A stretch of 64,000 bases of DNA from contig JAFVTU010000020.1 in NCBI GenBank assembly GCA_017503075.1, positions 62,001-126,000 of the forward strand, read 5' to 3'. The translations under genes and the position numbers were made by a program. This stretch comes from Paludibacteraceae bacterium (GTDB taxonomy: Bacteria > Bacteroidota > Bacteroidia > Bacteroidales > Paludibacteraceae). Numbering within the stretch: position 1 is the first letter of the stretch; every line of letters begins with the position of its first letter. The notes below the pieces were generated by a model that was not told the DNA's origin, ran no database searches, and saw only the letters and a list, made by a program, of their open reading frames with translations. Shown in pieces: positions 9,990 to 64,000 of the stretch.

Positions 9990-10096
9990 ATAGCCCGATG
10001 GCATTCTCTCGCCAATAGCCCATAGCCTATATCCCATAGCTCGCTTGCGAGCGTCCTATAGCCCGAAGGGCGTCCTCTAAACTGGCGCTCCGCGCC
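9990..10096. repeat. Class A array, CCCATAG/CCTATAG word
   Basis: Words such as GCCCATAG and CCTATAG alternate with hairpins GCTCGCTTGCGAGC, GCCCGAAGGGC and GGCGCTCCGCGCC. It overlaps the last codons of the transporter gene on the opposite strand. Confidence 0.75.
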
Positions 10097-14261: not shown

Positions 14262-14405
14262 ATCTCTCGCCTCTAACCTCTAACCTCTCACCTTTCACCT
14301 CTCACCTCTCGCCTTATCGCCTCATCGCCTCTTGCCTCATCGCCTCTTCGTCTCATAGCCAATAGCTCGCTAGCGAGCGTCCAATAGCCGCTCCGCGGCG
14401 TCCAC
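14262..14405. repeat. Class A array, CCTCTCG/CCTCTAA words
   Basis: About fifteen CCTCTAA, CCTCTCA, CCTTTCA and CCTCATCG words in tandem (7 bases, some 8), then CATAGCC words around hairpins GCTCGCTAGCGAGC and GCCGCTCCGCGGC. Confidence 0.8.
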
Positions 14406-16799: not shown

Positions 16800-17160
16800 T
16801 TTTTCTCGCCTCTAACCTCTCACCTTTCACCTCTTACCTATATCCTATAGCGCCACCAGCGCGTCCCATAGGCATCATTGATGCCGTCCCATACTCCAGC
16901 ACGCTCGCATTTTTTGTCGTACCTTCGGACGCCGCCTTGGCTTTGCCAATTCCCCCGAAAGTACGTTCGCAAGATGCAGCCCATACTCCAGTTCGCTCGC
17001 ATTTTTTTGAAAAATACGGCTTCGCCTTATGAATATGCCAATCACTCTTCACTCTCATAAGCAAGCTTCTGTCATGAATGTGAATGGCATATTCAATAGA
17101 TAAATCTATTTTATTTTTCAAAAAAGTGCTCGCTTTGCTTGCGTATGTGTATTTTTTGTC
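16800..17160. repeat. Class A words and duplicated promoter region
   Basis: CCTCTAA/CCTTTCA words, hairpins at 16850-16885 (GCGCCACCAGCGC and GGCATCATTGATGCC), then two copies of CCCATACTCCAG at 16888 and 16981. From 17096 on (AGATAAATCTATTTT) the sequence is similar to 18401-18473. No gene is visible. Confidence 0.55.
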
Positions 17161-18479: not shown

Positions 18480-18720
18480 GGAAAAATATTACCGAATAGG
18501 ATGGCCGTCAAGGTACATTCGTAATGGACGAGGCGATGGTTGTTTCTAAAGTGGAAAGAACCACTCAATATAGATCCATTGAGGGTATAATTCAATGAGA
18601 TGCAATGCAGGTTTCTGCGCATAGGTGGAACGAATGGTGGGTATTGGAAGGTGTATAATGTGAAATAGGACGGCATCGGGGATGCCTACAAGACGCCTCT
18701 TTGAGGCTATAGGACATTGC
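18480..18720 (+). ncRNA. Possible untranslated RNA
   Basis: From the promoter onward there is no credible gene; a GTG at 18478 gives only 23 codons. The segment has possible stems (AGTGG/CCACT at 18559, CAATATAGATCCATTG, GCAGGTTTCTGC) and ends in class A hairpins GGCATCGGGGATGCC and GCCTCTTTGAGGC. It may be a small RNA or a decayed gene. Confidence 0.35.
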
Positions 18721-22392: not shown

Positions 22393-23604
22393 ATGAGAGA
22401 AGAAAACGAAATATCCGAGCAACCGCACATCGTGAAATCTCACGACATACGCATTGATACAGATTACGCGGAATGGATTGCCGAGTTGAAACATCGGTAT
22501 CGTTCGGCGCAAGTGAAGGCTTCTGTGCGTGTAAATGCAGAGAAGTTGCTCTTCAATTGGGAACTGGGACGCGATTTAGTGCAAAAGAAAGCCGAAGAGC
22601 GTTGGGGCGCAGGTGTGGTGGAGCAAGTGAGCCTTGATCTCCAGCGTGAGTTCCCGAATGCAGAAGGTTTCTCGACTACGAATCTATGGTATATGAAACA
22701 GTGGTATCTGTTTTATTATCAGGTGGATACAAAACTCCAACAAGTTGTTGGAGAAATTTCAAGTTCAAAACTACAACAAACTGTTGCAGAAATTGATTCT
22801 CAAAAACTCCAGCAACCCGTTGGAGAATTTCCGTCTTCTTTTGCATACGTTCCATGGGGACATCATATTGCTATTATTTCCAAATGCAAATCAGTTGATG
22901 AAGCGCTCTTCTATGTAGGAAAGACGATAGAGCAGGGTATGAGTCGTGCGGCATTGGTGAACTGCATCAAAGCTAATCTATATGAGCATCAAGGAAAGAT
23001 TCTCAATAACTTCGCCGAGCACATGCCCGCATTGCAGAGCAAATTGGCGCAAGAAGTACTCAAGGAGAATTATGACTTTGGCTTTGCAACCATGAAGCAT
23101 GAGATTTACGATGAGCAGGAGTTAGAAGAAGCATTGAGCAAAAGTGTAACGGATCTTTTGTTGGAACTCGGAACCGGCTTTGCGTTTATAGGAAGACAGA
23201 AAGAACTGATTGCCGGAGATACTACACGCAAGATTGATTTGCTTTTCTATCATATCCGTTTGCGTTGCTATGTAGTGTGCGAACTGAAAGCCAAAGCGTT
23301 TGAACCGGAGTTTGCCGGAAAACTGAATTTTTACGTCAATGCAGTAGATGACTTGTTGAAAGCAGAGGATGATAATCCGACGATAGGCTTGCTCATTTGT
23401 TCGGATATGAATAAAGCCGATGTACAATGGTCGTTCCGTGGCATCAGTACTCCGATGGGAGTGGCAACATATAATAATGTACGCATCAAGGACATGCTTC
23501 CGACGCAAGAGCAACTGAAGGAACGCATGGAACTCTTACAAAAAGAAATGCGCGAAACAAAACGACTGATGAAAGCAAATAACCGACTCACCACCGACCG
23601 ATGA
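22393..23604 (+). CDS. DUF1016/YhcG-type PD-(D/E)XK nuclease-like protein
   Basis: A 403-residue protein of the YhcG family. The N-terminal DUF1016 part has NWELGRDLVQKKAEERWG and EFPNAEGFSTTNLWYMKQW; the C-terminal nuclease-like part has FIGRQKELIAGDTTRKIDLLF followed by CYVVCELKAK, which fits D-xn-ExK. The family is frequent in mobile and defence contexts, with a role in DNA processing that is poorly known. Residues 114-152 hold three copies of KLQQxVxE. It interrupts the sugar genes, and its last codons (TTDR) come from the next 11-base array. Confidence 0.85.
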   Translation: MREENEISEQPHIVKSHDIRIDTDYAEWIAELKHRYRSAQVKASVRVNAEKLLFNWELGRDLVQKKAEERWGAGVVEQVSLDLQREFPNAEGFSTTNLWYMKQWYLFYYQVDTKLQQVVGEISSSKLQQTVAEIDSQKLQQPVGEFPSSFAYVPWGHHIAIISKCKSVDEALFYVGKTIEQGMSRAALVNCIKANLYEHQGKILNNFAEHMPALQSKLAQEVLKENYDFGFATMKHEIYDEQELEEALSKSVTDLLLELGTGFAFIGRQKELIAGDTTRKIDLLFYHIRLRCYVVCELKAKAFEPEFAGKLNFYVNAVDDLLKAEDDNPTIGLLICSDMNKADVQWSFRGISTPMGVATYNNVRIKDMLPTQEQLKERMELLQKEMRETKRLMKANNRLTTDR

Positions 23605-54998: not shown

Positions 54999-55028
54999 AA
55001 TAGTACGCAATATGGCTTCTAATGTGGA

Positions 55029-55064
55029 AAATTAAGCACGCTCAAGCGTGCTTAATTTGCTTTT
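55029..55064 (+). terminator. Terminator after fic
   Basis: AAATTAAGCACGC and GCGTGCTTAATTT around TCAA, then GCTTTT. Confidence 0.8.
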
Positions 55065-55185
55065 AGGTTGTAATATTCAGATTTTCAATGTGATATAATG
55101 GGAAATTAATTTGCGATTAGGCGCCAGAAGCGCAGATTGATAACTTTTTTCTGCAAAAATAGTTGGAAAAGATGTATGAAATGTA

Positions 55186-55293
55186 GTAATTTTGTAGGCG
55201 GGAATCCAAGGCGAATGACCGCTTTTTTTTGTGGCAGAGCTGCCCCAGATAAACAAAAAAATGCAGAAAAAATCACTTTTCTGCATTTTTTTT
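55186..55293 (+). other. Tiny promoter-terminator unit
   Basis: TAATTTTG at 55186, then about 60 bases without a frame, and a perfect terminator (AAAATGCAGAAAA with TTTTCTGCATTTT plus more T) at 55255-55293. A short RNA may be made here. Confidence 0.4.
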
Positions 55294-55337
55294 GTATTTT
55301 CCTTGCCATACTGACAAGTTTTAGCAGTATGCTGCAG

Positions 55338-55345
55338 TACCTTTG
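55338..55345 (+). promoter_or_regulatory. Orphan -7 box
   Basis: TACCTTTG pointing into class A repeats and toward the 3' ends of minus-strand genes; no forward gene follows. Confidence 0.5.
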
Positions 55346-55365
55346 CAGCGAAATAGGAAAAATGG

Positions 55366-55440
55366 CGCCTGGCTAGGAAAACTAGTAGCACTAGCCGTAC
55401 TAGCAGGGCGTCCATTACCCAGCGCCAGCGGCGCTAGTGT
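55366..55440. repeat. Class A variant, CTAG words
   Basis: GGCGCC, then CTAGG, ACTAGTAG, CACTAGCCGTACTAG and GCGCCAGCGGCGC hairpins; reaches the stop codon of the lipoprotein gene. Confidence 0.6.
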
Positions 55441-55649
55441 TTCTGAGCGTTATACGACTCGATGGTTTTCGACTGGATGATGATGGCGGTATCGCCGCGG
55501 GTCAGCGAACGACTCTCGGTAGTGATCGTGCGTGTCACATTGCACGAGGTCAGCCCCAAGGCCATCGCGATGGCGGTAACAATCGACACCGCCAGGTACT
55601 TGAGCGCCTTCATAAGGCGCTGTTTTTGTTGCTCGGTTAATGGTTTCAT
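55434..55649 (-). CDS. Small lipoprotein of Bacteroidales mobile blocks
   Basis: A 71-residue protein. Start at MKPLTEQQKQRLMKALKYL (55649), since the longer frame has no credible N-terminus. Hydrophobic helix 15-32 ending in lipobox LGLTSC, then NVTRTITTESRSLTRGDTAI, a conserved tail of small Bacteroidales lipoproteins found near HU-like and VapE/VirE-like genes. Function unknown; lysis or surface role has been guessed for similar ones. Confidence 0.7.
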   Translation of the reverse strand: MKPLTEQQKQRLMKALKYLAVSIVTAIAMALGLTSCNVTRTITTESRSLTRGDTAIIIQSKTIESYNAQKH

Positions 55650-55801
55650 ATGTGTTAAGGGTTGTTTTAGATTAAAGGTTAGAGGCATGGCGACTATGGC
55701 GCAGTATACCAGTTGACACTTGCTGTCATTATCCATTTTGTTTTGCTCTCCAAATGCGGCATAGCAGCATTTCATTAGAGCAAAAGCAAAACTTATCCTT
55801 G

Positions 55802-55840
55802 AATTGACACTAATTGACAACCAAATTGACCTAAATTGTC
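55802..55840. repeat. Four-site AATTGAC array
   Basis: AATTGAC at 55802, 55812 and 55824, AATTGTC at 55834: spacing 10/12/10, as at 19030. Confidence 0.75.
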
Positions 55841-55973
55841 GTTAAACAATAACTCCTTGAGCGCGCAATAGTTGTTGGTTTATGTTGTTTTTTTTGTTGT
55901 AAAAACACTCCCCCGCCTTTCGCCTCTCGCCTAAACAGTAGCGCCATCGGCGCGTCCTAGCCGCTACGCGGCC

Positions 55974-56291
55974 TTACTCCTCGCCGTAGGCGTCCCACTC
56001 TTGTTTGAAGACATATCCCCAGAAGGTTGGGTACTTCTTCTGCGCGGCGAAGCCCGCTTGGTCTTGTGCCACTTTGTTAGGGTCAATCATACGCAGACGG
56101 GTGGACTTGCATACAGCCGCGAACTTCTCGCGATGTAAGATTTCGTTGGCACCTGGTGGGGTACTGCGCTCACCATAGACGGTGGTGTAGTTACGTTTAC
56201 TTGCCTTGCGGTGTGCAAAGCCTACTTTGTGTTGTTTTGAGATTCGTCCGTGAACCTTGTCCACAGGGAATACATATTCTACTTTTGCCAT
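55974..56291 (-). CDS. Small basic protein, paralogue 1 of 3
   Basis: A 105-residue basic protein: MAKVEYVFPVDKVHGRISKQ, RNYTTVYGERS, ANEILHREKFAAVC and C-terminal FWGYVFKQEWDAYG. It aligns along its length with the next gene upstream (VDKVHGRIS/IDKMSGKFH, NEILHREKFA/NQVANREKFA, WGYVFKQEW/QGYIFAMER). This small family is frequent in Bacteroidales mobile regions; function unknown, perhaps DNA or RNA binding. Start at 56291; its leader copies that of groEL. Confidence 0.75.
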   Translation of the reverse strand: MAKVEYVFPVDKVHGRISKQHKVGFAHRKASKRNYTTVYGERSTPPGANEILHREKFAAVCKSTRLRMIDPNKVAQDQAGFAAQKKYPTFWGYVFKQEWDAYGEE

Positions 56292-56366
56292 ATCGTCGGT
56301 ATTGGCTTGCCACAAGACCGACGAAAGATCGTCGTTGGGCGACCGCCATCCCTCCTCTTAAATCAA
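56292..56366 (-). promoter_or_regulatory. Structured leader, second copy of the groEL leader
   Basis: On the minus strand: AAGAGGAGGGATGGCGGTCG, CCCAACGACG, hairpin CGACGATCTTTCGTCG, GGTCTTGTGGCAAGCC, then CCGACGATATGGCAAA into the start. An AAATCAAAAT/ATTTTGATTT hairpin precedes it where groEL has GGACT/AGTCC. Confidence 0.65.
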
Positions 56367-56519
56367 AATCGCCTGGCAATTTTGATTTAGTTAGCGCCAT
56401 CGTTCATTACATCTCGCACGCTGACTGATGACTACATCATCATTATAGTGCTCGATACATTCACTCTGTTGCCATGGGACGGTTTCCCGCCTGTCAGGGG
56501 ACTGCTAGGATTTAAATAG

Positions 56520-56710
56520 GAGGCCCTCCATACCGGGAGGGGGTTAAGGGTTTAGTGTTTAGAGTTTAGTGTTTAGTGTTTTGTCGGCTTCGCCGAGGTG
56601 GTGTGCCCTTCGGGCAGGTTGTGTCGGCTTCGCCGAAGTTACTGCTCTGCGAGCCATCACCCACGCGCAGCGTGCATCACCTCCCTTCGGGACATCACCT
56701 CGCCAACGGC
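56520..56710. repeat. GGCATGGAGG block and class A words
   Basis: CCCTCCATACCGGGAGGG (related blocks at 6680 and 57490), then GTTTAGT heptamers four times, and hairpins TCGGCTTCGCCGA (twice), GCCCTTCGGGC, GCGCAGCGTGC and CCCTTCGGG joined by GGTTGTG and CATCACC words. Confidence 0.7.
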
Positions 56711-56712
56711 GA

Positions 56713-57015
56713 CTACACCAGCTTCTTGCGTTCCATGGCGAAGATATATCCTTGCAGGGATTTGTACTTGCCTGGGTTCTTCTTGAACGCTGCTGCGTAC
56801 TCGGCAATCTGCTCCTCGGTGAGCGTAGCCACATTCGCGCGGGCAGTAGCGAACTTCTCGCGGTTAGCGACTTGGTTCTCAGTAGGTTCGACGGTGATCT
56901 CACCTACCAGACCGGTGTACTGGGTGCCGTACTTCTCTGCGGCGTAGTACTTGGATTTGCTGTGGAACTTACCCGACATCTTGTCGATAAGCTCCATGGG
57001 TTTGAATTTACTCAT
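56713..57015 (-). CDS. Small basic protein, paralogue 2 of 3
   Basis: A 100-residue protein: MSKFKPMELIDKMSGKFHSK, YAAEKYGTQYTGLVGEI, TENQVANREKFATARANVA, and C-terminal SLQGYIFAMERKKL. Start at 57015 because the longer frame adds an unlikely Cys-rich head. It is a paralogue of the gene at 55974 and resembles small proteins common in Bacteroides mobile elements. High C-ending codon use. Unknown function. Confidence 0.75.
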   Translation of the reverse strand: MSKFKPMELIDKMSGKFHSKSKYYAAEKYGTQYTGLVGEITVEPTENQVANREKFATARANVATLTEEQIAEYAAAFKKNPGKYKSLQGYIFAMERKKLV

Positions 57016-57059
57016 TCGTGTTCGGCAATCGAACGAGAGTAAAATTAAACAAAAATTAT

Positions 57060-57327
57060 CTAAAAAAATCAAGGATCCTTTTTAAGACAATTCACGTCAA
57101 TTAAAGCGACAATTATTGACAATTATTTTTTTTGAAACAAAAATACGCAGTGCTCGCGTTCGGCAACATAGTCGCATTGACTGTTAACTCTGTCAACATT
57201 AGAGGACATGTGCCTCCGCTCTCCCCACTCGCTCACGAAGCTCGCGGGGACCCCTAATGAGCTACAAAAATACTTAAAAATCAAGGACTTGTTTTAAAGA
57301 CAATTGGCGTCAATTTTGTTGTCAATT
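57060..57327. repeat. Composite class C repeat, nearly two full units
   Basis: AAAATCAAGGA, GACAATT sites at 57086/57096/57108/57118, AACAAAAATACG at 57133, a set of hairpins, CTACAAAAATACTTAAAAATC at 57262 and again AAGGACTTG and GACAATT/GTCAATT sites at 57299/57309/57321. The element thus ends where a new copy starts. No gene. Confidence 0.75.
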
Positions 57328-57329
57328 AT

Positions 57330-57700
57330 TCTTATCTCGCCATACGGCTCAAACGATCTGCTCATTCGCTTTACTCATTCAGCCGTACGTCAATTAAAGA
57401 TTTACCTTTTGTTCTTGCCCAAATGAATGCAACGCGTTGCATTGGTGGGCAGAACAAATGATTGTTTCTTACTCAGGTTCGGGAAACCTCCATGCCGTGG
57501 GAGGGGTTAAAGGGTTAAGGTTTAGTGTTTAGGGTGTAGTGTTTAGAGGTTAGACCGCTTCGCTGTTAGAAGTTAGACCGTTCTTATCTCGCATTCGCTC
57601 GAACGATTTTTCCGCTTGCGCTCACTGTTAGAAGTTAGACTCTAGAAATCTAACAACGCAGTGGTCTAACAGCGCTTTAGCGCGGTCTAACAACACACCC
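57330..57700. repeat. Hairpins and class A GTTAGAC/GTCTAAC words
   Basis: A long imperfect hairpin at 57410-57460 (TTGCCCAAATGAATGC with GCATTGGTGGGCAGAA), the block ACCTCCATGCCGTGGGAGGG at 57485, GTTTAGT words, then GTTAGAA/GTTAGAC and GTCTAAC words around hairpins such as GCGCTTTAGCGC. No gene seen. Confidence 0.7.
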
Positions 57701-57711
57701 CTATTATACCG

Positions 57712-57736
57712 AAAAAGGGACTTTTGTTAAGTCCCT
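57712..57736 (-). terminator. Sigma factor gene terminator
   Basis: Read on the minus strand: AGGGACTT, AACAA-type loop, AAGTCCCT, TTTTT; 30 bases after the stop codon. Confidence 0.75.
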
Positions 57737-57765
57737 AGGTGCATTTTTTTTGCATTTTTTTGTTG

Positions 57766-58434
57766 TTATCTGCTTAGGATCACTCCAGTGTCGTGCATCC
57801 TCTTCAAAGCGCGATCGCGCAATTGGCAGACGCGTACCTTGGAAATACGCAGCATCTTAGCCACCTCGCTGACAGTATAACTGCGGCGCAGATCCATCCC
57901 GTATAGCAATTTGATTACCTTCCGTTCACGCTCAGGCAGACGGCTCAATATCTGACACACCTGCCTCTGCCGCTCCTCGTGCTCTATCTTAGCGTCGATA
58001 TGCTGGATGGTTTGACTGCCTAATAGGGTGGGGCGGTCCGCAATGGTGTCGCTCAGGAGCAGGTATTCGTGGCTGTCGGTGATCTCCATATCCAGACTGA
58101 CGAGGTCATCTGGCTCATGGTTGAGGAAGCGTTGTATGTGCTTGTTGATCCAGTAGAACGCTAGCGTAGAGAGGCGATTGCCTTTTGCGGGGTCGAACAT
58201 ATCCACGGCTTTAATTAGGCCGATATTACCTTCCTGGATGAGGTCTAGGAATTCTACCTGAGGGCGCAGGTACTGTCTAGCGATGTTGACGACCATCAGC
58301 AGGTGGGCGTGGATGAGCTGTTCGCGTGCCTCGGCGTCGCCTTGGCGAGCACGAGTGGCTAGGGTAAGTTCTTCTTGGGGGGATAGTTGTGGATAGCGAC
58401 TGATGTCGCGTAGGTAGGATTGTAGGATGTTCAT
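57766..58434 (-). CDS. Short sigma-70 family factor
   Basis: A 222-residue sigma factor of the primary/group 2 type without region 1.1. Region 1.2 MNILQSYLRDISRYPQLSPQ; region 2 LTLATRARQGDAEAREQLI and DLIQEGNIGLIKAVDMFDP, then LSTLAFYWINKHIQRFL (promoter melting); region 3 is short; region 4 ILSRLPERERKVIKLLYGMD and VAKMLRISKVRVCQLRDRAL. It lies in a block of small mobile-type genes rather than with dnaG/rpsU, so it may serve that element or alternative promoters. Confidence 0.9.
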   Translation of the reverse strand: MNILQSYLRDISRYPQLSPQEELTLATRARQGDAEAREQLIHAHLLMVVNIARQYLRPQVEFLDLIQEGNIGLIKAVDMFDPAKGNRLSTLAFYWINKHIQRFLNHEPDDLVSLDMEITDSHEYLLLSDTIADRPTLLGSQTIQHIDAKIEHEERQRQVCQILSRLPERERKVIKLLYGMDLRRSYTVSEVAKMLRISKVRVCQLRDRALKRMHDTGVILSR

Positions 58435-58471
58435 GGTGTAGGGTGTAAAGTCGGGGGAGTTTTTATTTTAA

Positions 58472-58567
58472 GACAATTATTGTCAATAAAAACGTCAATT
58501 AGTGACAATTCGAGGGGATATTTTGTTTGGGTTGGAAGAGCGACACGTCGCTGGCAACCCCAAACAA
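58472..58567. repeat. GACAATT array and GGGTTGG hairpin
   Basis: GACAATT 58472, GTCAATA 58482, GTCAATT 58494, GACAATT 58504 (10/12/10). At 58521 TTTGTTTGGGTTGG, inner hairpin GCGACACGTCGC, GCAACCCCAAACAAA, equal in plan to 51416-51467. Confidence 0.75.
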
Positions 58568-58576
58568 AATAGATTA

Positions 58577-58596
58577 TGGCGGGTGACCGCCTTTTT
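58577..58596 (+). terminator. Terminator-like hairpin
   Basis: GGCGG, GTGA, CCGCC and six T on the plus strand. No forward gene ends here; it probably belongs to the repeat block. Confidence 0.5.
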
Positions 58597-58614
58597 TATG
58601 GAGGAAGGTTGGTT

Positions 58615-58730
58615 TAATGGAGCAGCGGAGCTGCTGGTGTAAGGTGTAGAGTGTAGGGTGTAAAGTGTAGAGGCGGGGGGACGCCGTACCCTTGCGCAAA
58701 GGTAGCGCAAGGGTAGCGGAAGGGCGGGGG
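58615..58730. repeat. Class A words, GTGTAGA type
   Basis: Hairpin GCAGCGGAGCTGC, then GTGTAAGGTGTAGAGTGTAG-type words at 7-base steps, then two copies of GCGCAAGGGTAGC. Confidence 0.65.
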
Positions 58731-58916
58731 CTACACCTCCTTATACATGATGTTAAACACATACCCATACAGCGTCAGTTCTTCGCCTTCTACGGATAAT
58801 GGTCGTGGGTAGAGCGACTCCCATTGCTGCATAAATACGCGGGTGAGGACTGGGTTTTTCAGGACTAGCCATGCAGCGTGCGCTGCCATAGCAAAACGAA
58901 TTTGTGATTGATTCAT
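58731..58916 (-). CDS. Small protein, shortened paralogue 3 of 3
   Basis: A 61-residue protein: MNQSQIRFAMAAHAAWLVLK, VLTRVFMQQWESLYPRPL and C-terminal LTLYGYVFNIMYKEV. The end matches the GYVF/GYIF motif that closes the two paralogues downstream, so it is probably the same family with a reduced N-terminal half. Lies between the sigma factor and the VapE-like gene. Function unknown. Confidence 0.6.
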   Translation of the reverse strand: MNQSQIRFAMAAHAAWLVLKNPVLTRVFMQQWESLYPRPLSVEGEELTLYGYVFNIMYKEV

Positions 58917-59020
58917 AATAGTTTTGTTTTAGTATAAATTGTTGTAGATAATTCTGGTCATCCCATCTTGTCAACTTGTCATCTATTTGTTAAAACTCAC
59001 ACGGGCGCGGGCGTGAATTT

Positions 59021-60502
59021 TTAATAAATGTCGCTAGGTTGACAAGATGCATAGTTGTTGTCAATCTTTTTGGCGAGCGTGATCTCGTCTGTATCACGCT
59101 TATATACCATCCATCCTCGTACGGTACTTCCGGATAAATAGACTTGTTTTTTTTCAAATCCTTTTTTGGTCATCAACATCCCTAACTGCCTAGTATTCAT
59201 CGGCTTCTTAATACCTCCAAAGGTTACTAGCCTTTCTGATATCTCTGCGGTGGTCATAAACTCGCCTTTGCCTTCGGCTGGGATGTCAAAGAGGATAGGT
59301 AGCAGTTGCTCCTCGTTGTCCTGTGCTCGGAACTCCTCGTTATGTTTCTCTAGTTCCTCAATCTCCTGCATATCAAACCAATAGGCAAACCAACCTTGCT
59401 CCACTAGGTGTTTAGCTTGCGCATAGAGATACTCGTATGGCAATGTCGTGTGAAAGGGATTTTGGATGCTCTCCACCTCGAATGGCAGCCATCGGCGGTT
59501 GCCCGTGATATCGGTGAGGAACTCGCGATTATTCGTGCTGGCGCAGAAACTGGCTAGACGCATGCGGCGCTCCTTGAGGCGCCCGTAGGCGGCCCGCTCA
59601 TTGACATCGGTAGAGGTCAGCAGCGACTTGACGATATTCATCTCCCTGCCGCAGATGGCATCTAGCTCGTCGATATTGAGCATAGCGTTCTCGCATAGGC
59701 GCAGTCGGTCGTCCTTGCTGATCTGGCCGCTGAGTGGCAGTTTGCTGCTGTAGGCGCGCAGTTCGGGTGGCATGAGGTGGTCAAGCCAAGTGGTTTTGAA
59801 GATACCTTGCCGCCCTACTAGGACTAGCACGGTATGGTTGACCACCTCGTCGTTCATCCACGATGCGACCATGGCGACGAACCATTTCTTGAAGCAGGCG
59901 CGCCACAATGCGTCAGCATTGCTGCCGCTGGACGCCCCGTTGGGGCTATTGGACGGCGTTCCGCCTATTGGACGCCCACTTTGTGAGCTATAGGACGCTT
60001 CGCTATGGGTTTCATTATCCAATAGGCACTCTGTGCCGTCCCATAGCTCGCTTTGCGAGCGTCCCATAGCGGCATTGCCGCGTCCAATATCCTGTGCGCT
60101 ATCGCGCACACGCACTTGCTGCGCCACAATGTCAATCCAGTCGGGTTGGTCGGGAGTGTATTCGGGTAGTTGATCTAGCCAATCGCGGATAGGGTGTACG
60201 GAGGTGATAAGGTCCGATTTGAGGGCAGTCCATATCTCGGTGACGGAGATATTCACGCCCGTTTCTTGTACGCACTGACAGACCATGGTATTGATGTCCT
60301 TGTCGGTGAGGTTGCGCCAAGTATCGTTGCCTCTAAACTCTAAACTGTAGCCGCTTGCGGCGTCCTCTAAACTCTCCAAATTTCTGATTTGGAGGCAATC
60401 CGTCACCATATCATGGCGTAGGCTATCGTACTGCAAATAATTTTGTTCCAGCCACTCACATGCAATTTGCTGGCGTAATTCTTTTTTATCTTGTTTGTTC
60501 AT
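59021..60502 (-). CDS. VapE/VirE-like ATPase with two repeat insertions
   Basis: A 493-residue protein. Residues 200-400 are the VapE domain (primase-associated helicase fold): VLVLVGRQGIFKTTWLDHL (Walker A-like), AMLNIDELDAI (Walker B), FCASTNNREFLTDITGNRRWLPFEV (sensor). Residues 60-135 resemble the preceding helical part. The C-terminus (KPMNTRQLGMLMTKKGFEKK) is a winged helix. Typical of phage and mobile-element replication. Residues about 38-56 and 138-192 are class A repeat inserts, in frame and stop-free; the core blocks are intact. Upstream on the same strand are two unknown genes. Confidence 0.85.
   Translation of the reverse strand: MNKQDKKELRQQIACEWLEQNYLQYDSLRHDMVTDCLQIRNLESLEDAASGYSLEFRGNDTWRNLTDKDINTMVCQCVQETGVNISVTEIWTALKSDLITSVHPIRDWLDQLPEYTPDQPDWIDIVAQQVRVRDSAQDIGRGNAAMGRSQSELWDGTECLLDNETHSEASYSSQSGRPIGGTPSNSPNGASSGSNADALWRACFKKWFVAMVASWMNDEVVNHTVLVLVGRQGIFKTTWLDHLMPPELRAYSSKLPLSGQISKDDRLRLCENAMLNIDELDAICGREMNIVKSLLTSTDVNERAAYGRLKERRMRLASFCASTNNREFLTDITGNRRWLPFEVESIQNPFHTTLPYEYLYAQAKHLVEQGWFAYWFDMQEIEELEKHNEEFRAQDNEEQLLPILFDIPAEGKGEFMTTAEISERLVTFGGIKKPMNTRQLGMLMTKKGFEKKQVYLSGSTVRGWMVYKRDTDEITLAKKIDNNYASCQPSDIY
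59926..60093. repeat. Class A insertion of seven hairpins in the VapE-like gene
   Basis: Hairpins GCCCCGTTGGGGC, GGCGTTCCGCC, GCCCACTTTGTGAGC, GCTTCGC, GGCACTCTGTGCC, GCTCGCTTTGCGAGC and GCGGCATTGCCGC, joined first by CTATTGGAC and then by the complementary GTCCCATAG. The orientation flips in the middle, so the array is itself a large inverted structure. Length 168 bases, a multiple of three. Confidence 0.85.
60331..60390. repeat. Second class A insertion in the VapE-like gene
   Basis: CTCTAAA words twice, hairpin GCCGCTTGCGGC, CTCTAAA again, then CTCCAAATTTCTGATTTGGA; in frame near the N-terminus. Confidence 0.8.
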
Positions 60503-60616
60503 AATCTTTTTATATTCAATATGTTATAATCTAAAACTGTGCCAAATCTACAGGCGTTGAAATGTAGCATGACAGGCAATACCTGTGGTGTACAGGTGTT
60601 GCTTTCTGCCAAATTG

Positions 60617-61015
60617 TCACTGGTGCAAGAGGATGGCTTGCGTGACTAATCGAGTGAGATGATGGTATAGCGCTTGCCATTTGCGCACCGCATATTGGGG
60701 TGCTTTTTTGCTTTGCCACGGATGGTGTGCATCCGCTAGCCTTCGTGCTACGACACTGAGTTGTTCGGCTCTAGGCGCTGCGTGGTAGAGGGTGACATTA
60801 CTCAGTATCCAGTTCTCAAAAGCGGTGTATGGTGGGCGTACCCCCTTGTGGATGATCTCTTGCTCAAAGAGCACATGTATGACGATCAGCCAATCGATAT
60901 CCTCGGTGATGATGAAGTAACGGTTCTCCTTCATGCATAGCCACTGCACATGTGTGAGCAGGTCCTTGAGTTGCTCCTCGCTGATGCGATTTATTTGCAA
61001 TACTCGCCGTATCAT
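60617..61015 (-). CDS. Unknown protein upstream of the VapE-like gene
   Basis: A 132-residue protein, MIRRVLQINRISEEQLKDLL with later RYFIITEDIDWLIVIHVLFE and NWILSNVTLYHAAPRAEQL. No signal peptide or known domain. Start overlaps the previous gene's stop by four bases (ATG/TGA), so it is translationally coupled to it. Probably part of the same replication-type cassette; relatives are often annotated only as hypothetical. Some arginine and histidine richness at the C-terminus. Confidence 0.65.
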   Translation of the reverse strand: MIRRVLQINRISEEQLKDLLTHVQWLCMKENRYFIITEDIDWLIVIHVLFEQEIIHKGVRPPYTAFENWILSNVTLYHAAPRAEQLSVVARRLADAHHPWQSKKAPQYAVRKWQALYHHLTRLVTQAILLHQ

Positions 61016-61506
61016 AGCTTACCTCCTTTCGTGGTGATCCACACTTGGGCTTGGTGGCCCAGACTGCGGTCGAGGTGGTAGTGATAGAAACTCAGGCACT
61101 CGGATGGGTTGAAACCCTGTAGGGTGCTGAGGTAGGCGCCTACGACGGTGTCGCATTGTTCTACTTGCAGCAGCTGACTACCTAGGTCACGCTGGATGAT
61201 ATGTAGCGCCCGCTTGGCGATAGCTAGGTCATGGCATAGGATGATGAGTAGGATCACCTCGCCTGTCGCTTCGCGCTGTGTAGTGTGGTGTAGTGTGGTA
61301 TAGGATGGTATAGTGTGGTGTAGTGTGGTGTAGTGTGGTGTAGGGTTGTTTTCCTCGCCTTTACACCTTACACCATACACTTTACACTGCGGCATAGCCG
61401 CCTCTAAACTGTAGCTCGCCTTGCGAGTGTTCTCTAAACAGCGCTGCAAGCGCTTGTCTTTCGCTTCTCGCCTTTTGCCTGTAACCTTTAAACTAAAATT
61501 TTTCAT
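61012..61506 (-). CDS. Unknown protein whose first half is repeat-derived
   Basis: A 164-residue frame. Residues 81-164 look like a genuine protein (VILLIILCHDLAIAKRALHI, GAYLSTLQGFNPSECLSFY). Residues 1-80 are encoded by class A words and hairpins (KDKRLQRCLENTRK, TPHYTTLHHTIPSYTTLHH). The original start may have been lost when repeats inserted, or a start inside the repeat is used (MPQCKVYG at residue 39). Coupled to the next gene. Function unknown. Confidence 0.55.
   Translation of the reverse strand: MKNFSLKVTGKRREAKDKRLQRCLENTRKASYSLEAAMPQCKVYGVRCKGEENNPTPHYTTLHHTIPSYTTLHHTTQREATGEVILLIILCHDLAIAKRALHIIQRDLGSQLLQVEQCDTVVGAYLSTLQGFNPSECLSFYHYHLDRSLGHQAQVWITTKGGKL
61266..61497. repeat. Class A GTGTAGT array entering a reading frame
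   Basis: GTGTAGTGTGGTGTAGT-type words (7 and 10 base steps) repeated about eight times, then ACACCTTACACCATACAC words, hairpins GCGGCATAGCCGC, GCTCGCCTTGCGAG and GCGCTGCAAGCGC, and CCTTTTG/CTTCTCG words. Confidence 0.8.
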
Positions 61507-61723
61507 AATTTGGAATGTTTAGCGAAAATTTTGATACCCTTTCTTGTTTGAACGGACTGAGGTATCATGCTGTCGACCACTCAAACAATTATTATACAGC
61601 TAAATTCTCAAAATTACGATGTTCGCCTTTGTCATTTGAGCCCTTCTCAAATCGTGAAAGGCGATGCGAAATTACTGCTATTTTAGTAATTGTGCAAATG
61701 AAATACGGTGATTAAATCGCTGA

Positions 61724-61805
61724 TATACAGACTATTTGTTGGTATACAGGTTATATACAACATGTATACACAATCATATACACTTCCATATACACAAGAT
61801 ATACA
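61724..61805. repeat. Seven TATACA sites at about 11-base steps
   Basis: TATACA begins at 61724, 61743, 61754, 61765, 61777, 61789 and 61800 (steps 19, 11, 11, 12, 12, 11), thus on one helix face. It lies between the replication-type cassette and a separate operon and could be an iteron-like or operator site. The rest of 61507-61723 shows no gene, only an inverted CGCCTTTGTCATTTGAG with CTCAAATCGTGAAAGGCG. Confidence 0.75.
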
Positions 61806-61814
61806 GAAGTGCAT

Positions 61815-61848
61815 AAAAAAAACACCTTTAGTGGTTGACTAAAGGTGA
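61815..61848 (-). terminator. Terminator overlapping the operon's last stop codon
   Basis: Minus strand: CACCTTTAGT, CAACC, ACTAAAGGTG and eight T. The TAA of the last gene lies inside the second arm. Confidence 0.85.
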
Positions 61849-62382
61849 AGATATTATGGGAATAGAATTTGAAATGCTATTTGCCTTGAGGTCATTTATA
61901 AAGGGAGTATAGGAATGTTCGTTGTAAATACCATTTTCGGCCATCATCTTGTAAATGTAGAACCATTGACTGCCACCGTTGAATTCTTCTACCTTCTTGA
62001 GTGCTGCATAAATTAGTTTAAGTTTTTTGATTCGTGTATCTGTATTTTCAAATGGTTTTTCTAAGCATTGATTATGAGGTTGTTGAGGACGCGTTCCTAG
62101 ATAATCATGTGGTTGTAATTCTTCTCCAACCATTTGCTCTATACTATCTTCGTCTTGGTGTGCAACAGCTAACATGGCTTCAAAAAGTGTAGTACCCCCG
62201 ATAAAGTTAAGAATAGTAACCATATGGTCATAGTACGGATGTTCATTGAGATGCTCTGCATCTACTTTCTTTGCTAGTGACAACATGATTAGCACATCAA
62301 ATAGGATCATTGTAGCTGTGCGTGTTTTCTGTTGATCGGTACGCTTATTAACTCCATCAAAGGAGTCATATTTGCGTTTCAA
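61828..62382 (-). CDS. Unknown protein, third gene of a three-gene operon
   Basis: A 184-residue soluble protein with a helical middle (TATMILFDVLIMLSLAKKV, YYDHMVTILNFIGGTTLFE) and an end rich in polar residues. I recognise no domain. It follows the 63-residue gene by 24 bases and ends in the terminator hairpin. AT-rich compared with the cassette to its left. Context suggests one functional unit with the two genes before it. Confidence 0.75.
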   Translation of the reverse strand: MKRKYDSFDGVNKRTDQQKTRTATMILFDVLIMLSLAKKVDAEHLNEHPYYDHMVTILNFIGGTTLFEAMLAVAHQDEDSIEQMVGEELQPHDYLGTRPQQPHNQCLEKPFENTDTRIKKLKLIYAALKKVEEFNGGSQWFYIYKMMAENGIYNEHSYTPFINDLKANSISNSIPIISSPLVNH

Positions 62383-62406
62383 TTGATTGAAGATTGTCTG
62401 AACTTT

Positions 62407-62598
62407 CTATTTTCGGTTGGGCGCTTTCTTAATTTCATTAACCAGTATCAGTGCTTCGTTCCAAACTTCCTCTGGTGAAAGGTCCTCAAACTGGTCGCCT
62501 ACCGCTTCGATGGCATTGTAGCAAATAGTATATTCTTGCACTGCATCATACTGTCCACGCAACTCGGACTTTTTTTCTTCAGAGAGTCGTTGATACAT
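62407..62598 (-). CDS. Unknown small protein, second gene of the operon
   Basis: A 63-residue acidic, helical protein (MYQRLSEEKKSELRGQYDAV, LSPEEVWNEALILVNEIK). Five bases after the first gene. Its size and charge would suit an antitoxin, inhibitor or adaptor, but this is only inference. Confidence 0.7.
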   Translation of the reverse strand: MYQRLSEEKKSELRGQYDAVQEYTICYNAIEAVGDQFEDLSPEEVWNEALILVNEIKKAPNRK

Positions 62599-62603
62599 AG
62601 GAG

Positions 62604-63548
62604 TTATGCTTTTGTATGAGTTTTGATTTGGTCAATAAAAGATGTAAATGCGTCAAAGTTTTTGTCAAATAACTCTGGATTATTTTTAAGCATCGCACGG
62701 AATGTATCGTCTGACATTTGTTTGAATACATATTTATCTTTTACTTTCACGACATGCAATCTAGATCTAATACCTTTCACTTTAATTACAATATCTTCTC
62801 CTTCTAGCGCACAAACCTCTACATAGTTGTTTAATTCTTCATTATTTTTGTCAATAAGGAGCGGACTCCCATCGGGAGATGAGAATGTGGTGGTCGCACG
62901 GGCTTTCATAGACTTGGCAGCTTGATTGACGTTTCCGATAAGTTCAGTAGACCAAGGGTGATTAGGTGCAGCAAAATGGAATGCAACTTCTTGAATACCA
63001 CTAGCGTTATGTTTTTTGATTATATCCCAAAATGCATCAGGAGTATATTGGTTTTTTATTTCAATAGTTACATGATGTGGGTGAAAACGATCTCGCAAAC
63101 TAGTCTCTAAAATGGTCGCAACATTGTCTGGTGAAGGGAAAGCAGCGTTCTTTTCGATGGCAATAAATTCGCGTCCAAATCTATTATCAATTAGTACATG
63201 ACACCAGGGTGCATCTTGTTCCCTGATTTTTTTGAAATCAATGTGTCGTGTTAGTTTTTTATATGGATTTGATACCATTAGTAGTATTAATCCTGCTTTT
63301 TCCCAAACAACTCGGACTCCGTATTTTGTTTTGTATTTGATTTGTTTGTTATCTGGAGTTCTTTGAGTTTCTACTAGAAAGCATTCAAATTCGCGTCCAC
63401 CATTAAGATGTTCATGAAAGATAGATTGAAGGAAGTCTTGTTTATCTTTGAGCGTGGGTAGTGGTTCGTGCTGATCTTCTTGACCTAGAAACATGCCAAT
63501 GTTTTCTACATCCCGGAATTTGTAAGTGTAAATTGCGAATATTGCCAT
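62604..63548 (-). CDS. Unknown protein, first gene of the operon
   Basis: A 314-residue soluble protein. The start MAIFAIYTYKFRDVENIGMF is a beta strand; YGVRVVWEKAGLILLMVSNP and APWCHVLIDNRFGREFIAIE follow, then HHVTIEIKNQYTPDAFWDII and a beta-rich middle. No domain recognised; it may be a sensor or effector in a novel three-gene system. Own promoter 40 bases upstream, divergent from the glycosyltransferase gene. Confidence 0.75.
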   Translation of the reverse strand: MAIFAIYTYKFRDVENIGMFLGQEDQHEPLPTLKDKQDFLQSIFHEHLNGGREFECFLVETQRTPDNKQIKYKTKYGVRVVWEKAGLILLMVSNPYKKLTRHIDFKKIREQDAPWCHVLIDNRFGREFIAIEKNAAFPSPDNVATILETSLRDRFHPHHVTIEIKNQYTPDAFWDIIKKHNASGIQEVAFHFAAPNHPWSTELIGNVNQAAKSMKARATTTFSSPDGSPLLIDKNNEELNNYVEVCALEGEDIVIKVKGIRSRLHVVKVKDKYVFKQMSDDTFRAMLKNNPELFDKNFDAFTSFIDQIKTHTKA

Positions 63549-63587
63549 TAGAGTTTAGATTTTAAGGTTAATAATTTCTTTCACCCA

Positions 63588-63619
63588 CAAAGGTACTACA
63601 TTTTTTATATTTACACAAA
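63588..63619 (-). promoter_or_regulatory. Promoter of the three-gene operon
   Basis: Minus strand: TTTG (63616-63619), spacer 20, TACCTTTG (63588-63595). Confidence 0.85.
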
Positions 63620-63705
63620 TAATTTGCAAAAATATGTTGATTTTTTGTGATTTTCCTCAAAATCTGCGATAAAAGTACCCTTTTTCACACAAAATATCAA
63701 AGATA

Positions 63706-63737
63706 TTTGTGTATGTCGGAAAAAAGTAGTAACTTTG
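63706..63737 (+). promoter_or_regulatory. Promoter of the last glycosyltransferase gene
   Basis: TTTG 63706-63709, spacer 20, TAACTTTG 63730-63737; start codon 24 bases later. Confidence 0.85.
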
Positions 63738-63760
63738 CGCGATTAAGAACGAATATAAGA

Positions 63761-64000
63761 ATGACTGATATTTATTTTTCCATAGTAATTCCATTGTACA
63801 ACAAACAGAATGCGATTGCAGCGACGCTACAGTCGGTTTTGGCGCAGACATATACCAACTATGAGATAATCGTAGTAGATGATGGGTCTACGGATGACTC
63901 TGCTCGCATAGCGGAAGAGTACATCCGTGAGGTTAAAGGCGCGGAAAACTGCGAAGCAGAAACAACTGCCTCTCGCCTTTTGCCTCTCGCCTTTCGCCTT
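63761..64000 (+). CDS. Family 2 glycosyltransferase, 3' end beyond window
   Basis: ATG 63761 gives 80 codons open to the edge: [20 protein letters not shown], then [21 protein letters not shown], the nucleotide-sugar site of GT2 enzymes. After about residue 58 the sequence leaves the family pattern and becomes a run of CCTCTCG/CCTTTTG heptamers ([11 protein letters not shown]), so a class A insertion lies between the first and second strands' helices. Whether the domain continues beyond the window cannot be seen. Confidence 0.85.
63963..64000. repeat. Class A heptamers inserted in the glycosyltransferase
   Basis: CCTCTCG, CCTTTTG, CCTCTCG, CCTTTCG and CCTT in direct succession, in frame, to the window edge. 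Confidence 0.75.

Follow-up and report, generated by a model that had tools for sequence, protein, structure and literature searches.

The closest described systems are palindromic or tandem repeats that enter genes. The sections of PMC3733652 drawn on here describe Rickettsia palindromic elements (RPE) as palindromic repeats sitting in frame in genes of likely functional proteins, and the GTAG- and CGTC-tagged REPs as short, high-copy hairpins that are mostly intergenic and sometimes intragenic, many of the intragenic ones lying in DNA synthesis and repair genes. The same sections report REP clusters coding for 43-82 aa in Thauera and R. conorii, and CGTC REPs with stems of 8-9 bp starting with A-T, loops of 4-5, a CCA tail and a mostly head-to-head dimeric arrangement. 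In nematomorph mitochondria, perfect inverted repeats inside protein genes are gained and lost between species (extracts of PMC6649704). Borg elements contain fast-changing tandem repeats in ORFs, associated with disordered stretches and with a repeat hotspot in one protein (extracts of PMC9879509), and TAACTGA heptamer direct repeats also occur in five Bacteroidetes (extracts of PMC4679880).

Here we describe a VapE-like gene of a gut bacterium of the family Paludibacteraceae (Bacteroidales) that hosts two repeat inserts, within a window of 64,000 nucleotides (the whole stretch of DNA analysed). As with RPE, the inserts are in frame and stop-free within genes of likely functional proteins, a likeness in effect and compared by description. 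However, an RPE is one conserved palindrome, while here variable hairpins stand on constant heptamer-like linkers, in arrays; moreover, sibling species hold other repeat families at the same site, and the inserts are frozen, whereas RPE are said in the extracts of PMC6649704 to lose repeat identity over time. With REPs, as portrayed in PMC3733652, they share short high-copy hairpins, mostly between genes and some within (DNA synthesis and repair genes included). A GTCC (CGTCC if the last stem base is counted in) or A/GTAG sequence beside the hairpin resembles the REP tags, but here it is part of the linker and does not stand alone as a tag. Unlike the CGTC REPs, stems here are of 2-6 bp starting with G-C, loops are mostly of 3-4, arms vary, and arrays are long and mostly in one orientation; the palindrome that defines CGTC REPs (8-9 bp stem, A-T first, loop 4-5, CCA tail) is not the one seen here, and the RAYT-type Y1 transposase that marks GTAG REPs could not be established in eight array-carrying genomes. 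The nematomorph repeats are likewise coding palindromes, for which template switching is proposed as one possible mechanism, but both their arms code conserved residues according to the extracts of PMC6649704; here most arms lie within the inserts and junction hairpins alone reach conserved codons. Borg repeats also change quickly within reading frames, but those in the extracts of PMC9879509 are direct repeats of archaeal extrachromosomal elements that give perfect amino-acid repeats, whereas the hairpin module occurs only here, in no constant reading frame. The TAACTGA repeats are heptamer direct repeats too, but in the extracts of PMC4679880 a single invariant heptamer is repeated, located for the most part ahead of start codons, with no hairpins between units.

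Among open-licence PMC papers we recognised no description of these arrays, nor did we find there a system that unites constant linkers bearing variable hairpins with family replacement at fixed codon sites and frozen inserts. In-frame palindromes are already known from Rickettsia and REP-rich genomes; the combination appears new, in that we did not find it.

A VapE-like gene with two in-frame inserts

The host ORF was assigned to the VapE-like proteins by the Pfam domain PF05272, which covers residues 194-392 with 115.7 bits (E 2.7e-33), above the curated cut-off of 25. The PHROG profiles matching it are those of phage DNA helicase/primase, and the PDB holds a relative (7pds, E 5e-11, residues 201-364). 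A short sigma-70 family factor (222 aa, window 57766-58434) adjoins the gene on the same strand. The features are as follows.

59021-60502, minus strand: VapE-like helicase/primase-type gene, ORF of 493 aa, host of both inserts
59926-60110, no strand assigned: site 2 insert, array of seven hairpins on CTATNGGACG-type linkers plus a closing hairpin, coding about residues 131-192
59926-60009, plus strand: first half of site 2, linkers CTATNGG on the plus strand, four hairpins
60019-60092, minus strand: second half of site 2, inverted, linkers CTATNGG on the minus strand, three hairpins
60093-60110, no strand assigned: closing hairpin TGTGCGC-TATC-GCGCACA, N-terminal side of site 2
60329-60390, minus strand: site 1 insert, TTTAGAG linkers, one GGAC-hairpin-TA module, coding about residues 38-58
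60374-60394, no strand assigned: junction hairpin CTCCAAAT-cagaa-ATTTGGAG, its arms made of gene codons and the start of the site 1 insert

An earlier note on this DNA had claimed two in-frame, stop-free insertions, and indeed the reading frame runs uninterrupted through both sites. Its insert coordinates and its count of seven hairpins were right, and a closing eighth hairpin is added here. The hairpins lie at 59934-59946, 59955-59965, 59974-59988 and 59997-60003 in the first half and at 60025-60037, 60046-60060 and 60069-60081 in the second, six of the seven being perfect and that at 59974-59988 having one stem mismatch. The flip of linker orientation that the note had seen in mid-array is real, as on the plus strand the linkers read CTATNGG until 60009 and CCNATAG from 60019. 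Both inserts had also been placed in class A, which holds for site 2 and for the module GGAC-hairpin-TA common to both sites (60350-60361 is the internal hairpin of site 1), but not for the linkers of site 1, which are TTTAGAG. As both inserts precede the ATPase domain (194-392) in the protein, the intact Walker and sensor motifs remarked on in the note are expected and carry little information. The stretch GRQGIFKTT, which we take to be Walker-A-like, is present in the ORF.

Folded as coding-strand RNA, site 2 (59926-60120) reached -94.1 kcal/mol vs a shuffle mean of -66.4 (sd 4.2, z -6.6), with none of 200 shuffles as low, and its plus strand folded as DNA gave z -4.9; the fold of site 1 was only mildly unusual (z -2.1, 6/200 shuffles as low). 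An Rfam search of 55000-64000 at E up to 1 returned no family at the inserts, and its sole match (MIR8001 at 55255-55292) was below its gathering score.

Homologues are short or gapped at both sites

Aligning the homologues, the check suggested by the note, showed them short or gapped at both sites. A VapE match was present in 13 of 61 relatives searched, the own genome included, and the genus alignment comprised 15 sequences, namely the own gene, two paralogues of the own genome (contigs C11 and C20), which match either side of both sites, and twelve others. At site 1 the five shortest have 5-8 aa, our gene 22 and the C20 paralogue up to 48; at site 2 ten sequences have 6-8 aa and three have 16, against 43 in the C20 paralogue and 66 in our gene. 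Some of the longer homologue forms are other repeats, such as GAGGCGA-type heptamers. A second alignment of 22 sequences, chosen from 80 loci, gave the same picture for 21 phage/prophage homologues: 19 have a gap at site 2 and two have about 8 aa, and all 20 that reach the region of site 1 show a gap of ten or more columns. The blocks flanking both sites are conserved among homologues, and the conserved residues at the sites themselves that the note had named as counter-evidence did not appear in unrelated homologues. The best reading of these alignments is that the inserts occupy what would be permissive loops between conserved blocks.

Comparison of the VapE-like gene with that of a sibling genome (G014) gave dN 0.176 and dS 1.846, hence purifying selection, and on this ground the repeat-coded residues look tolerated, in support of what the note had proposed; the parallel that it drew with RPE is a fair one where effects are concerned. 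In addition, the VapE homologue of another genome (G009, contig C24, fetched stretch L013) was seen to carry a third repeat-like insert (GGNVGGTLGGTL) near the C-terminus. In what follows, G000 is the own genome, G-numbers denote genomes, C-numbers contigs within them and L-numbers fetched stretches.

Units combine a constant linker with a variable hairpin

Each unit consists of a heptamer-like linker (CTATNGG, TTTAGAG, GAGGCGA and others) and a hairpin module GGAC-[G..C]-TA, which is found behind CTATNGG and behind TTTAGAG linkers. GGAC precedes the hairpin (read as GTCC from the opposite strand, or CGTCC if the last stem base is counted in) and CTA follows it, both as part of the linker. Over the complete window, GGAC is followed by a hairpin 15 times vs 0-2 times in five shuffles. 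The 175 units contain 90 distinct hairpin cores, and 153 units form perfect end-to-end hairpins (stem 2 or more, loop 5 or less), the commonest cores having stems of 2-6 bp, G-C outermost and loops of 3-4. Complementarity of the inner pairs far exceeded that of arm-shuffled cores: 0.938 vs 0.586 for 11-mers, 0.852 vs 0.637 for 12-mers, 0.938 vs 0.574 for 13-mers, 0.875 vs 0.429 for 14-mers and 0.95 vs 0.638 for 15-mers, the observed value being matched in 1/2000 shuffles for 12-mers and 0/2000 for the other lengths. These results show that the hairpin arms vary, yet covary so as to stay complementary. A general excess of hairpins in coding sequence was considered and rejected, as the 45 ORFs of the window hold 98 hairpins vs 65-102 in ten synonymous shuffles.

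Within arrays hairpins separate the linkers, and many arrays are succeeded by plain heptamers (such as CTATAGG, TTATAGG and CGAGAGG). At its variable position the linker has T in 43/61 linkers of coding arrays vs 46/135 others (P 2.6e-6) and A in 7/61 vs 58/135 (P 7.6e-6), the linkers of one array not being independent of each other. That T is favoured for avoiding stops was rejected for the more frequent orientation, in which a stop does not depend on this base; the T excess itself stands. Counts of linker phase showed that, inside one array, identical linkers occur in more than one frame.

Several related structures were seen elsewhere in the window. The GAC-hairpin-TA module recurs at 10039-10074, 14365-14399, 16850-16885, 17413, 18672-18707 and 55941; an intergenic array of GTTAGA-type linkers and hairpins lies at 57500-57700; and a TACACCACAC array with hairpin clusters (61278-61460) is in frame in a candidate ORF of 164 aa (61012-61506). 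A tandem repeat of 36 bp containing a perfect palindrome lies within a long ORF at 22730-22831.

The arrays belong to a repeat system of one genus

The two-linker pattern CTATNGGACN{3,30}CTATNGGAC matched 21 times in the own genome and never when read backwards. Across the genus it was found in 14/101 genomes with 116 matches in total (summed from the table); the eight genomes in which it matches at least four times are called carriers, and in several genomes with a single match this lacks a hairpin and looks like chance. The reversed pattern matched 19 times, in 15 other genomes. In GTDB contigs, a three-linker pattern matched 38 stretches, which by eye are 18 hairpin arrays and 20 stretches like ordinary tandem repeats. 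All 18 arrays came from six assemblies, five of them labelled as ruminant-gut Paludibacteraceae and one as 'uncultured Bacteroidales'; G014 is among the six and is placed in the same genus as our genome. The inserts are part of a repeat system of one Paludibacteraceae genus. In Saprospiraceae Bin_29 (L083, L102, L107, L112) we observed CTATTGGACGTTGGA-type tandem repeats of similar letters, with no hairpins separating the linkers.

The complete 186-base array of site 2 was found once only, while pieces of one to three hairpins match many places, 43 in the own genome (40 of 67 candidates scored) and some in all eight carriers. Of 49 class A arrays, 18 sit within an open frame 200 aa or longer and the other 31 outside such frames. 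These 49 come from 33 stretches of G000 and G014, chosen as array-holding, and from window 58501-62000, and the lack of stops in the coding arrays is partly circular, as these were recognised through their open frame. Array-bearing genes include those of MurG, MurF, AroA, DnaE, RecJ and RecQ. Among ten proteins submitted to NCBIfam, RecJ, MurG, DNA polymerase III alpha, the RecQ family and MurF scored above cut-off, and AroA, an aldehyde dehydrogenase, a PhoB-type regulator, a TonB-dependent receptor and an NlpC/P60 protein below it; array-bearing AroA and MurG matched solved enzyme structures. In G014, yet another array (L119:3880-4105, contig C7) apparently contains the recJ stop codon in its first hairpin.

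Sibling species carry other inserts, or frozen ones, at the same sites

MurG was present in 37/37 genomes, with a single match in most genomes searched. Among 26 loci aligned out of 30 fetched, G000 alone has the class A array and G013 another insert. Among seven siblings the array is common to G000, G086 and G090, while G014 and G063 are short and without it, G096 has plain heptamers and G124 a short variant; G000 and G086, both with the array, differ by dN 0.031 and dS 0.303, so that here, too, selection is purifying while the insert is in place. In RecQ, the first site has CTATNGG-type arrays with unlike hairpins in G014 and G000, the second has in G000 another kind of repeat, with the frame broken in the assembly, and the third has GAGGCGA-type heptamers in G014 alone. 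The G000 recQ (L215, G000:C21:51465-53341) is split into frames of 353 and 297 aa at a TACACCACAC-type insert, for which phase variation, decay and assembly error are the alternatives. At three sites of AroA in eight siblings, different repeat families (class A arrays, GAGGCGA heptamers, CTACAG-linker hairpins, TTAAAAC, ATTCTTA and others) stand in for one another between conserved blocks, in frame.

At VapE site 2, the inserts of the nearest relatives of our gene (G014 and G096) are short or made of heptamers, and four genomes whose VapE belongs to another subgroup (G085, G086, G124 and G063, 54-57% identity) have inserts of like length with other linkers. Their forward-flip-reverse layout was read by eye, plain DNA alignment alone being silent on it. 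The match in G063 has one stop within the aligned stretch, and the comparison excludes G124_C35 (motif miss) and partial matches in G090.

Nine pairs of siblings whose inserts are of one kind differ at 10/288 third codon positions in the insert vs 235/720 in the flanking 40 codons. Eight of the nine had P below 0.05, and one pair showed no significant effect. A control pair with unlike inserts gave 16/22 vs 52/76, and 2/4 heptamer-only pairs had P below 0.05. The nine pairs were chosen for insert likeness, so this freezing is partly ascertainment; the scarcity of intermediates is not. Indeed, insert identity is bimodal over 211 pairs at six sites (regions of at least 36 bases), with 22 pairs at 0.9 or above, 164 below 0.5 and 25 between, and all 22 exceed the identity of their own flanks. 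Inside a clade an insert stays frozen, and between clades it gives way as a whole. The freezing extends to hairpin loops and linkers as much as to stems, for which reason recent lateral spread or homogenisation fits better than base-by-base functional constraint.

Junction hairpins at insert ends

Several inserts terminate in the reverse complement of the neighbouring gene sequence. The junction hairpin at VapE site 1 has 8 bp in our gene and a different 10 bp in G014, where the gene half differs too, and those at AroA site 3 have 12 bp. Complementarity between insert end and flank is clear at AroA site 3 right, VapE site 1 left and MurG right, and in some homologues also at VapE site 2 right. 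Junction hairpins with a score of 7 or more were found at 22/107 insert ends vs 27/1740 other positions of the same genes. When the own flank was compared with flanks swapped between homologues, the difference was not significant (22/107 vs 127/958, P 0.107), in sequences that are related and hence not independent. A general complementarity of insert ends and gene flanks was accordingly rejected, being not significant overall by a first measure and then by this stricter one. The junction hairpins may be the trace that fold-back synthesis would leave; own flanks pair no significantly better than swapped ones, so the support they lend to a fold-back step is weak.

Origin and maintenance of the inserts

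Taken together, the comparisons make it likely that the inserts consist of repeat DNA placed in loops where a working protein tolerates it, most probably translated as a flexible, dispensable peptide. As one claim, this reading takes in the repeat system of the genus and three steps of a mechanism. The arms would be made and kept complementary through fold-back DNA synthesis (template switching), arrays would grow and trade units with other arrays via short shared linkers, and selection would retain those that hold the frame and sit in tolerant loops. Template switching reportedly makes hairpins, according to one study, and in one study it is said to change proteins. Going further, and tentatively, one hairpin-writing process of fold-back and linker exchange could repeatedly rewrite the same loops, with linker families as interchangeable dialects and inserts that spread or homogenise as a unit; spread as a unit would leave the insert more alike between species than the surrounding gene. 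This possibility is based on the like layout of VapE site 2 in G000, G085, G086, G124 and G063, as read by eye, on linkers that have nothing in common (CTATNGGACG, CTGTAGATCG and CTGTNAGACCG).

A transposon-like palindromic element of REP, RPE or MITE type, moved in trans by a transposase so that arrays are tandem insertions, seems to us unlikely. Hairpin order is modestly non-random, some types succeeding each other above chance as transposition might have it (F followed by P 6 times vs 1.9 expected, 12/2000 shuffles as high, uncorrected, twelve pairs), and AroA sites 2 and 3 of G000 carry similar arrays. Against it, the full site 2 array was found once while its small pieces are scattered, and an unsystematic look saw no constant ends or target duplications. 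For the RAYT-type transposase domain Y1_Tnp (PF01797), the eight carriers yielded a single match, weak and partial, in G000 (25.1 bits against a cut-off of 23); G014, the richest in arrays, was among those that yielded none, and two of the carriers are only 62% complete. A RAYT/Y1 transposase as driver was rejected on this result. We doubt rather more that the inserts are selected for, with peptides, mRNA hairpins or repeat-number frame switching (phase variation) serving the cell. The nearly unchanged third codon positions of shared inserts, the use of the same loops by many species and the two frames of the G000 RecQ at its TACACCACAC-type insert would suit such a role, but linkers read in differing frames within one array give no constant peptide, the inserts of different species at a given site are unrelated (the 164/211 pairs under 0.5 identity), and loops and linkers are frozen as much as stems.

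Mitochondrial bypassing elements are cut out or skipped, either in mRNA or during translation. A similar fate for the present inserts is very improbable: their folds are very stable and comparable elements are mentioned in the extracts of PMC6649704, but the inserts compared in VapE, AroA and MurG leave the frame open, while skipped elements need neither frame nor freedom from stops. Hardly credible, finally, is a decaying gene copy or an assembly artefact, for which an assembly contamination of 5.49% and the three VapE-like copies could speak; purifying selection is strong, the same arrays occur at orthologous sites of separate genomes, and MurG, a gene matched once in most genomes searched, carries an array. 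Repeat DNA carried in tolerant loops of working proteins is the reading that we prefer.

Significance

Until now in-frame palindromes were reported chiefly from Rickettsia and certain genomes rich in REPs; those described here are common in one genus of gut Bacteroidales and sit in housekeeping genes. Close relatives with other inserts, or none, at the same codon form natural with/without pairs, which bear on how repeats enter genes, how perfect hairpins are kept up and on inserts as a possible source of new protein loops.
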